DNA of 64,000 nt from Leptolyngbya sp. CCY15150 (GTDB lineage Bacteria > Cyanobacteriota > Cyanobacteriia > RECH01). Positions 34,377-39,160 of the stretch are shown here, piece by piece (position 1 is the stretch's first letter; each line of letters opens with the position of its first letter). Made by a program: the position numbers and the translations under genes. The stretch spans positions 124,001 through 188,000 of the forward strand of contig NZ_JACSWB010000174.1 of NCBI RefSeq assembly GCF_016888135.1, written 5' to 3'. The notes under the pieces are model-generated. The model worked only from the letters and a program-made list of their open reading frames with translations, did no database searches and was not told the DNA's origin.

Positions 34377-34688
34377 ATGCTACATCGCAAAATTTATCAA
34401 CTATGTTGTGATGGTCGTGACGTATGGGTCTTTTTACGCGATCAGCAGCGCTGGATTGAGCGCGCGCGTATCTTAGATATTGAAGGAGATTTAGTCACCC
34501 TGCGCTATGAAACCGAAGAGGAAGACGAAACCTGCTCTTGGGAAGAAATGGTGCGGTTAGAGAGCATTGGTTCGGTGATGCAAAAACTAGCGGCTGTACC
34601 CCGAGGCGATGTGGAACCGCTGGTGTCGGATGATTGTCCAGAAGCCGAACAACTGCGCCGCCCCTATCCCGAATCAAACCCCGACTAG
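34377..34688 (+). CDS. Small conserved cyanobacterial protein (DUF6679-like)
   Basis: A 103-residue soluble acidic protein. The start (MLHRKIYQLCCDGRDVWVFL) and the core RARILDIEGDLVTLRYETEE strongly resemble a family I recall as DUF6679, conserved in cyanobacteria and without known function; the family number is from memory. The pattern of short strands suggests a small beta-barrel-like domain, followed by a charged C-terminal tail. Stands alone, convergent with the MBL gene. Confidence 0.75.
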   Translation: MLHRKIYQLCCDGRDVWVFLRDQQRWIERARILDIEGDLVTLRYETEEEDETCSWEEMVRLESIGSVMQKLAAVPRGDVEPLVSDDCPEAEQLRRPYPESNPD

Positions 34689-34753: not shown

Positions 34754-36397
34754 CTAGCTACGCGGCTCGAAGGCAGGGCAGTAGCCCTCCGGCGTGACCT
34801 TGAAGCCAAATAGGGGAGAATTCTGCCCAGAACATCGCTGCTTACGAAAGAAGCGACAGTTTTCGCAGCATTCTAAGCCGCTGAGGGCGGCAGCTTCCGT
34901 GCCCTGGCTCAGCAGTTCTCGCTGCGATACGCCCCGCAACACCAACTCATCTCCCTGCCAGCGCGCCTCGACCAAGCCCGTATCGGCTAGGTGCTGCCAG
35001 CGAGGATCGTGGGTCATATTTTCTGGCAACGTCACCATGATGATGGTTTCCAGCTCGGTCAGTTCCCCTTCGTAGCGTATGTCTGGGGGAGCTGGCTGAT
35101 GGAACATCTCGCCAATGGGCAGCTCCACTAGAGAATTAGCCGTGGGGCAGTGGAGATGATAGCGGCTTTGCAGTTCGTCGAGCCCGGTCAAGTCTGTGAG
35201 GTACTGGGGGGCTCCGTGGACGAAGATGACATGCTGGGGGCGGAGGTTGTGGATGAGCTGGGCGGTACCCGGCCCGTCGCAATGTTCGCTGAGCAGATAG
35301 GTGTCGACCAGCCACTGTCCCGATTGGATGAAGGACTGGAACTGGGAAGGCATATGCTCAATTAGCGATGGATAGAGATCCTGGGGCGATCGCCCTGGTT
35401 GTTCCGTCAATAGCAATAGCCAGCGCTGGGTGGCCGCTTGGGGGCTGCTCAGCACCCGCTCAACGTCATCTGTAATCACAATGCAGGGCGTTTGATACCA
35501 GGCATCATCGCCCGTATGCTCATCCCGCTGGCTCCAGCGCCGCACCCTAGGACGCACGCGGGTATCCCAAAAGAGGGGCTGGTGGCGGGCGAAGTTTTGC
35601 ACCGTACTGGGCAGGTAGGGCATCAGCGTTAGATAGGCATCACACCCGGCGGCGACCATGCCGTCTACCCAAATATCGATATCCCGCCCGGTGAAATGGT
35701 GATGGCTGCGCAGCAGCATGAGGAGTTCTTGCCCTAGCCCTAGGGGTTCGGTGGGCAGGAGAACCGATTGACCGTTGGCGATCGCTCGATGGATGCGTTC
35801 GGCCAGTTGATTTTCCTGCTGGCGGCGGTGGGGATGGCGAGAGGTGCCATAGCTACCTTCGGTAATCAAAATATCGGGGCGCAGTCCCCGCAGTTCATCC
35901 AAGGGCAACCCATCTACGAGACGGGAACTGGAGAGTAGATAATCCCCGGTGTAGATGAGGGTGTAATCGCGCTCGGGGGTTTTGTGGGTAATCAGAGCAG
36001 CAGCAGCACCGGGGAGATGGCCGGCGGGCCAGAGTTCAACCGTGAGATCGGGGTAGAGATTAAAGGGCGATCGCCACGCTAGGGGTTGGCAAAAATCAGG
36101 AACCTCCGGCTCCTCGGGCCAATTGAGAGGCAGCAGCTTGGCGGTGACGCCGCTGGCATAGATGGGAAGCTGGGGATAGGCCTGGTGCAGCGCCAAGAGT
36201 CCCCGAGCATGGTCTTGATGGGCATGGCTACAGAGCACCACGTCGGCTGGAGGCAGGGAACCATCGTGGCTTTTGAGCAGGGAAACGTCCTGCAGACCAC
36301 AGTCTAGCAAGATGCGATAGGTGCCAATACGGACGAGCAGACAAACCCCTTCTGTGGCGTGTCCCACAGCATAGGGCAGGCACTCTAGCTCAAGCAC
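34754..36397 (-). CDS. MBL-fold hydrolase (beta-CASP-like) with a C-terminal cysteine cluster
   Basis: A 547-residue protein. The N-terminal metallo-beta-lactamase domain has the metal motif SHAHQDH (residues 57-63), AGHLPGAAAALI and a conserved YTGDYLLSS. The layout resembles RNA-processing beta-CASP nucleases, with a downstream region around residue 385 reading HVIFVHGAPQYL like their C-terminal histidine motif. After about residue 495 a separate tail carries Cys511-x2-Cys514-x7-Cys522-x17-Cys540, a possible Fe-S or zinc site. Substrate unknown; nuclease activity is an inference. Confidence 0.82.
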   Translation of the reverse strand: MLELECLPYAVGHATEGVCLLVRIGTYRILLDCGLQDVSLLKSHDGSLPPADVVLCSHAHQDHARGLLALHQAYPQLPIYASGVTAKLLPLNWPEEPEVPDFCQPLAWRSPFNLYPDLTVELWPAGHLPGAAAALITHKTPERDYTLIYTGDYLLSSSRLVDGLPLDELRGLRPDILITEGSYGTSRHPHRRQQENQLAERIHRAIANGQSVLLPTEPLGLGQELLMLLRSHHHFTGRDIDIWVDGMVAAGCDAYLTLMPYLPSTVQNFARHQPLFWDTRVRPRVRRWSQRDEHTGDDAWYQTPCIVITDDVERVLSSPQAATQRWLLLLTEQPGRSPQDLYPSLIEHMPSQFQSFIQSGQWLVDTYLLSEHCDGPGTAQLIHNLRPQHVIFVHGAPQYLTDLTGLDELQSRYHLHCPTANSLVELPIGEMFHQPAPPDIRYEGELTELETIIMVTLPENMTHDPRWQHLADTGLVEARWQGDELVLRGVSQRELLSQGTEAAALSGLECCENCRFFRKQRCSGQNSPLFGFKVTPEGYCPAFEPRS

Positions 36398-37026: not shown

Positions 37027-37647
37027 GTGCTCCTACCCTTTAGCCCATCGCCCTTACCGCCTATTGCTGCTGACTGGTTAGCGCGACCCTCTCCAGCGAT
37101 CGCCGTAGACCTGCTCGGCTGCGCCCTCGTGCGCCAGTTTGAGAACGGCTCCACCCTGCGCAGCCTGATTGTGGAAACCGAAGCCTATGCCCCCGATGAT
37201 CCAGCCTGCCACGCCTACCGCCGCCGTACGCCGCGCAATGCCGTTATGTTTGGCCCGGCGGGCTACAGCTACGTGTACCTGATCTATGGCATGTACCATT
37301 GCCTGAATGTGGTCACCGATGCGGAAGATGTGCCCAGCGCGGTGCTCATTCGGGCCGTGCAGTTGCAGCAAGAACCCCCCGGCGATCGCTCCCCCCAACC
37401 CCTCGCCCGCCTTGGCGCGGGCCCAGGAAAACTCTGTCGCGCCCTGCAGATTGATCGTTCCCACTCAGGTCAACCCTTCGCGCCAGGGCAACCGCTTTGG
37501 CTAGAGCAGCGATCGCCTAGCTTAGACCAGCAGATTTCTGAAGGAGCGATCGCCCTGCATCAAACCACGCGCATTGGCCTAACCCAAGGAGCCGATATTC
37601 CCTGGCGGTGGTATATTCGCGACTCGGTAGCCGTGTCGAAGCGCTAG
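37027..37647 (+). CDS. mpg: DNA-3-methyladenine glycosylase (AAG/MPG family)
   Basis: A 206-residue alkyladenine DNA glycosylase that excises alkylated and deaminated purines in base excision repair. Family motifs: DLLGCALVR, the catalytic region [17 protein letters not shown] with its Glu, and [18 protein letters not shown] with the intercalating tyrosine. The C-terminus contains [13 protein letters not shown]. It starts at a GTG (37027); no in-frame ATG lies upstream within the short gap. Monocistronic by context. Confidence 0.92.
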
Positions 37648-39062: not shown

Positions 39063-39160
39063 AGCCCTCACCCTAAATCCCTCTCCCAGAGCGGGAGAGG
39101 GACTTTGAATCCGGCTCCCCTACTCCCTTTTTGGGGAACAAGGGTTGGGAGATGAGGGCT
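39063..39160. repeat. MITE-like repeat A between the MCE and ATPase genes
   Basis: A 98-base element with terminal inverted repeats AGCCCTCA (39063-39070) and TGAGGGCT (39153-39160), and an internal perfect hairpin CCCTCTCCC/GGGAGAGGG (39079-39101). A second element with related termini lies at 57446-57543. No coding capacity. Confidence 0.75.

Follow-up and report, generated by a model that had tools for sequence, protein, structure and literature searches.

Four conserved cysteines at the end of a CPSF73-like cyanobacterial protein and their resemblance to HiPIPs

What kind of centre might four cysteines form at the far end of a nuclease-like protein, and what would such a centre contribute there? 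The question is raised by a gene in a 64,000-nucleotide stretch of the genome of Leptolyngbya sp. CCY15150 (hereafter, the window). A reading based on the sequence only had described its product as an MBL/beta-CASP-like protein with a C-terminal cysteine cluster. The coordinates given there (34754-36397) are correct, and the strand, which was absent, is minus: this strand holds an open reading frame of 547 amino acids, and frame 1 of the plus strand contains many stops. The reported spacing, Cys511-x2-Cys514-x7-Cys522-x17-Cys540, proved exact when checked codon by codon. In its own genome, the window protein yields a single match at E ≤ 0.001. The features of the locus are as follows.

34754-36397, minus strand: coding sequence of the short-form cyanobacterial MBL/beta-CASP-like protein with a four-cysteine (Cys4) tail (GTG start, 547 amino acids)
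36209-36226, minus strand: HxHxDH motif, residues 58-63
36017-36019, minus strand: motif 3, His127
35942-35944, minus strand: motif 4, Asp152
35858-35860, minus strand: motif A, Glu180
35318-35800, minus strand (approximate boundaries): divergent beta-CASP region, around residues 200-360, without SGM loop and without PF10996 match
35282-35284, minus strand: motif B, His372
35216-35218, minus strand: motif C, His394, RNA-type by the rule quoted in PMC3095777
34898-35080, minus strand: family-specific C-terminal domain, around residues 440-500, with strands and helices in low-confidence models
34763-34876, minus strand: Cys4 tail module, HiPIP-like, residues 508-545
34865-34867, minus strand: codon of Cys511
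34856-34858, minus strand: codon of Cys514
34832-34834, minus strand: codon of Cys522
34778-34780, minus strand: codon of Cys540
37027-37647, plus strand: methylpurine-DNA glycosylase (MPG), divergent upstream neighbour
34377-34688, plus strand: DUF6679 protein, convergent downstream neighbour

The neighbouring genes lie outside any shared operon with the MBL gene and carry no functional inference. Among 72 of 80 fetched homologue stretches, which extend at most 2.5 kb to either side, 15 have MPG nearby (divergent in 14), 26 have DUF6679 and 36 have either of them. A search for tRNA and tmRNA genes across the 64 kb found none, and the sole Rfam match nearby is a sub-threshold one to whalefall-1 (39064-39103; E = 0.38).

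Body of the protein and its catalytic positions

Pfam annotates the window protein with MBL domains and an RMMBL ‘RNA specificity’ domain. The Beta-Casp domain (PF10996) is absent at E ≤ 1 in the window protein and at E ≤ 0.01 in 12 members of the family. Among the NCBIfam models, aCPSF1/FttA (TIGR03675) comes first with 84 bits against a cut-off of 580, RNase J (TIGR00649) reaches 11.9 bits against a cut-off of 400, and the C-terminal domain remains without a match. A sequence search against the PDB puts Integrator subunit 11 (INTS11), CPSF73 and TTHA0252 first. The same three lead the comparison of the predicted fold (Foldseek, VIA; Z of about 20-24 over residues 1-431, in a full-length model with a mean pLDDT of 66), and RNase J structures follow lower in VIA (Z 18-19). 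By its sequence and predicted fold, the body is thus of the CPSF73/TTHA0252 type rather than an RNase J, with which it has the superfamily and fold class in common. For Synechocystis, a published BLAST search identified slr0551, with 44% identity to RNase J1, as the one RNase J gene (available text of PMC7283877).

With CPSF73, INTS11 and TTHA0252, the window family has in common the MBL fold, motifs 1-4 and A-C, the RMMBL region and the overall fold. Unlike them, it has neither the S-x-G-M loop nor a PF10996 match, and it adds a C-terminal domain and the Cys4 tail. The loop of the canonical relatives is lost throughout the short family: of 143 rows, only L004 (at residue 430) and L174 (at residue 3) show an SGM pattern, and neither occurrence lies in the loop. 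FttA/aCPSF1, the archaeal termination factor, provides the best NCBIfam model, yet the family differs from it by the large distance to the cut-off, by having no Pfam KH domain and by the added tail. A separate observation concerns Cys252 in the beta-CASP region (35642-35644, minus strand), which is invariant in all 142 homologues, own gene and tail-less members included. The three longest homologues (L057, L061 and L064) measure 674-718 amino acids from stop to stop against a median of 562, and their genome-search matches are interrupted mid-gene.

Catalytic positions were scored in 142 unique homologues, among them the window gene itself, read again from the genome; the corresponding table has 143 rows, with the window counted once more. 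Left out were six loci that are paralogues or outgroups (L206, L207 and L212-L215), repeats of the same gene and ten loci with more than one matching open reading frame (split or shifted frames; all ten show the tail). Nine positions were considered, i.e., the HxHxDH motif as four, H127, D152, E180 (or Asp), H372 and H394. The window protein has all nine, as do 131 of the 142 homologues (own gene included); the protein is thus supported as an MBL/beta-CASP relative, with motifs of the RNA type. Of the intact homologues, 130 carry the tail and one does not. Damaged positions occur in seven tailed members, which retain all four cysteines (L011, L049, L052, L053, L055, L056 and L192), and in three tail-less ones; the remaining homologue is truncated by a contig end, with its tail present. 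Four of the seven (L049, L052, L053 and L055) have at least two catalytic residues replaced next to an intact Cys4 tail and are, judged by these replacements, likely pseudo-enzymes.

Motif C is a histidine in 141 of the 142 homologues. DNA-acting beta-CASP enzymes carry a valine at this position (Callebaut et al. 2002, as quoted in the available part of PMC3095777). An ‘RNA- or DNA-processing’ enzyme had been suggested for this locus, and the histidine favours RNA; the rule is a correlate only, as a Val-to-His exchange in SNM1A left the substrate choice unchanged (PMC7458816, in the part available).

The absence of both the SGM loop and the PF10996 match implies that cleavage by the short form may be altered or lost. 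One could go further and consider the family as mostly non-catalytic, an RNA-binding or scaffold counterpart of CPSF100 and INTS9 in which a repurposed nuclease body carries the Cys4 tail as its main functional element. The missing loop and domain match, the ten homologues with damaged catalytic residues and the constancy of the four cysteines among tailed members, whose active-site positions vary, all fit such a protein. Nonetheless, nine intact positions in 131 of 142 homologues would be unexpected for a dead enzyme, and we regard this explanation as rather unlikely.

Conservation and loss of the four cysteines

In the class-wide sample, the gene is present in 204 of 291 genomes (own included), and 197 of these 204 bear the tail. 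A homologue is also present in the culturable Xenococcus sp. PCC 7305. Among the 142 homologues, a set biased towards tailed genes because some of its loci (L074-L113) entered it via the tail profile, all four cysteines are present in 138 and all are absent in four, with no case of partial loss, a pattern beyond chance; excluding the own gene, 137 of 141 have all four and four have none. The genome tally of 197/204 is free of this entry bias, while the cysteine invariance seen in one homologue alignment is there by construction, its rows having been chosen by their cysteine pattern. The spacing is nearly fixed as well, with x2-x7-x17 in 135 of the 137 other tailed homologues and x2-x15-x17 in two. 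The adjacent C510 is kept in just 103 of 142.

Tail-profile matches at E ≤ 0.01 are found in 204 genomes of the same sample, six of which (E = 0.001-0.006) do not have the gene. Conversely, the tail profile finds nothing in six gene-bearing genomes and only a chance match elsewhere in a further one (G110). The tail-less gene ends were read directly in all seven (G061, G074, G100, G176, G085, G110 and G229), so the tail appears to be dispensable in some lineages. These losses are spread over four genera in three families, and the three tail-less sequences included in a tree do not form one clade (internal support is mostly weak). In 19 searched genomes, the tail profile returned elsewhere just chance-level fragments (E = 2.5e-4 or worse). 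Homologues lacking the cysteines had been named as a possible objection to a metal centre; they do exist, though few, and each has lost the four residues together.

Outside the class, eight genomes of a phylum sample give weak matches to the gene profile (E = 2.9e-21 to 1.9e-9). Four of these matches were read (L212-L215; two are closely alike and one ends at a contig end), and three have a C-terminus without the tail. The four-cysteine cluster is absent from the C-termini of the canonical relatives L212-L214, L229, L230 and L232, in line with the earlier view of a conserved cluster separate from the usual beta-CASP architecture. The gene, which in these samples is confined to the cyanobacterial class, is best explained, as far as its sequence tells, as a branch of the CPSF73/INTS11/TTHA0252/FttA-type ribonucleases. 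One genus has short gene remnants with several stops (L208 and L209) in two small genomes of 2.8-3.0 Mb (G389 and G416), which suggests that the gene is decaying there.

A cluster conserved apart from the active site could act as a redox switch, in which a tail Fe-S cluster or disulfides would gate the nuclease by light, oxygen or thioredoxin state. In its favour, three of four tail-less homologues also have damaged catalytic motifs. Yet, seven damaged-motif homologues retain all four cysteines, which implies that regulating catalysis is not the sole role of the tail. Moreover, the tail-less L062 retains all nine catalytic positions, and the tail-less L234 retains HAHADH and YTGD (in a match that contains one stop). 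Gating of this kind therefore seems improbable to us. Whether loss of the tail goes with loss of the active site was also considered, but two of these tail-less homologues share one genus, three more tail-less genes were read after the 3/4 count, and no such link is claimed.

Resemblance of the tail to HiPIPs

When the 46-residue tail of the window protein is compared with Pfam, HIPIP (PF01355) is the first match (E = 0.022). Its scores of 15.5 and 15.3 bits stay below the gathering cut-off of 22 bits, and the match spans positions 29-65 of the 66-position profile, i.e., the second half only, with the N-terminal HiPIP half missing. The HiPIP-type CX2C-Xn-C-Xn-C pattern is present. Among 55 tails, 10 match HIPIP (best E = 0.0014) and 45 do not; four match the Cys-rich Prolamin_like family (best E = 0.011). 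A profile built from the 55 tails and compared with PDB sequences places HiPIPs in the top three positions (1hlq, E = 0.013; 2hip, 0.41; 1pih, 0.44), followed by HDAC6 chains that align outside the cysteines; no zinc fold occurs among the tail matches at E ≤ 10. An hhalign comparison of the tail with HiPIP gives a probability of 80.9. The third cysteine lines up in the alignments with 2hip and 1pih, but not in the one with 1hlq or the one by hhalign.

The extent to which this similarity reaches beyond the cysteines was gauged by a shuffle test against five HiPIP segments, in which the Cys columns were fixed and the other columns shuffled (300 nulls). The best score is 18.1 bits compared to 2.8 ± 2.2 for the nulls, and the summed score is 59.0 compared to 4.3 ± 7.2; in both cases, none of the 300 nulls reaches the real value. 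Per HiPIP, the real score is reached by 0/300 nulls for 1hlq, 0/300 for 2hip, 1/300 for 1hpi, 5/300 for 1eyt and 3/300 for 1b0y. Since 1hlq and 2hip had entered the test through their matches to the tail profile, the other three provide the fairer test, with 1eyt and 1b0y being nearly alike. Predicted structures say little about whether the four cysteines come together in space: the tail blocks have a pLDDT of 35-56 in the full-length model, the C-terminal-domain model has a mean pLDDT of 54, and block means for the tail are below 60 in both models. The structure matches contain no HiPIP fold, but they cover residues 1-431 only and not the tail. Because of the sub-cut-off scores, the restriction to the second half and the register of the third cysteine, we read the tail from its sequence as HiPIP-like, not as a HiPIP.

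Four-cysteine sites often bind zinc, and the tail could instead hold a single structural zinc in a small zinc fold that stabilises the C-terminus or contacts RNA without redox chemistry. Zinc ribbons have paired knuckles; the tail, in contrast, has a single CxxC pair. The absence of zinc folds from the PDB matches and the similarity to HiPIPs beyond the cysteine positions also argue against zinc, whereas the sub-threshold HiPIP match leaves room for it. Two precedents are in its favour. Artemis (SNM1C), also a beta-CASP enzyme, has an extra metal site that is conserved across species; this is a zinc site, though it lies inside the beta-CASP domain of a DNA enzyme (PMC7458816, available part). 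The MASS delta subunit, with a CX2C-Xn-C-Xn-C motif and a predicted [4Fe-4S] cluster, was found to contain just one iron, in a rubredoxin-like fold (available text of PMC12358834), so the motif alone is no proof of a cluster. Zinc is the main rival, a possible but less probable occupant: of the ‘Fe-S or zinc centre’ put forward by the sequence-only reading, the Fe-S option becomes the likelier one through the HiPIP resemblance in the profile search, the shuffle test and hhalign.

Tiny modules with the CX2C-Xn-C-Xn-C pattern are also found on larger enzymes in the beta and gamma subunits of BSS and MASS and the gamma subunit of HPAD. Such HiPIP-like [4Fe-4S] subunits of glycyl-radical enzymes have been linked to solubility and conformational control, and some have no known function (PMC12358834 and PMC12590467, as far as their available sections go). 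The window module differs from these HiPIPs and HiPIP-like subunits in that it is fused to a nuclease-type C-terminus and corresponds to the second HiPIP half only. The roles described for the subunits, along with the seven damaged-motif homologues that keep their cysteines, leave the proposed redox switch on the enzyme unsupported.

The explanation we favour, with a probability of roughly 0.5, is a HiPIP-like [4Fe-4S] module on a CPSF73/INTS11/TTHA0252/FttA-type body, with a stabilising or docking role. The Cys4 module of approximately 40 residues would bind a [4Fe-4S] cluster, and the body would bind RNA and, in most lineages, presumably still cleave it at the two-metal site. The cluster would then cap the C-terminus as a folded element that stabilises the protein or docks RNA or a partner, and would not chiefly serve to switch the active site on and off by its redox state. 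The component of this explanation that the sequences themselves establish comprises the motifs, the cysteine conservation, the all-or-none loss, the HiPIP resemblance and a tail common to two subfamilies.

If the tail does hold a [4Fe-4S] cluster, the family would join a HiPIP-like module to a CPSF73-type protein. In the open-access literature, we found no report of such a fusion and no paper recognisably describing the present cyanobacterial family. The closest study is a search for FttA homologues in Synechococcus elongatus PCC 7942, which in the available text named only RNase J (PMC13289151). According to the same source, cyanobacteria do not have Rho, and how their transcripts end or get trimmed is an open question, for which the family offers a concrete candidate other than RNase J. 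A more specific role as a cyanobacterial FttA/CPSF73-like RNA 3'-end or termination factor with a built-in HiPIP-like [4Fe-4S] module would be a long shot. Should the cluster be present, the family, a candidate for RNA processing that is widespread in cyanobacteria yet uncharacterised, would be tied to iron-sulfur supply. Natural controls exist in the seven genomes without the tail and in the homologues whose active sites are damaged.

A long-form subfamily with the same tail

Two genomes of the phylum search carry a divergent, longer copy. With a sister long form as the query, an order-wide sample contains this form in 23 of 120 genomes at E ≤ 1e-100, and in 65 of 120 at E ≤ 1e-40, short form included. 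The class sample gives 0/291 at E ≤ 1e-100, an empty answer that is no proof of absence. Thirteen distinct long forms measure 882-970 amino acids from stop to stop, and all have the SGM loop and HxHxDH. The four cysteines are present in 13/13, with a spacing of x2-x7-x17 in 12 and x2-x9-x17 in one. Both long forms that were scanned have a clear Beta-Casp domain (PF10996). One long form, compared with NCBIfam, reaches 248 bits for aCPSF1, also far below the 580-bit cut-off. A stretch similar to the short-form C-terminal domain (around residues 440-500) is found in the long-form paralogues, too. On the sequence level, the long forms thus constitute another cyanobacterial subfamily, whose beta-CASP body is canonical and whose Cys4 tail is shared with the short form. 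In relatives from Deinococcus, Herpetosiphon and Klebsiella, the last 130 residues show no tail of this kind.

Crinalium epipsammum PCC 9333 and Nostoc sp. UHCC 0302 also have tailed long forms on plasmids, where they are annotated just as ‘MBL fold metallo-hydrolase’. The short protein has three plasmid matches, which fall at the same places where the long form matched in those records and hence do not support a mobile short form. Phage records yielded no match to the short form and viral contigs no relative, and the idea that it came from a phage or mobile element was rejected. The PADLOC defence-system scan gave no match for either form. On the mobilizable Crinalium plasmid (L228:3902-8440), a DEAD/DEAH helicase gene follows the long-form gene, and its product matches restriction-enzyme and other defence models; the two genes possibly constitute a two-gene unit. 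Finally, one genome (G485) holds four long-form copies, which suggests mobility or amplification of the long form.
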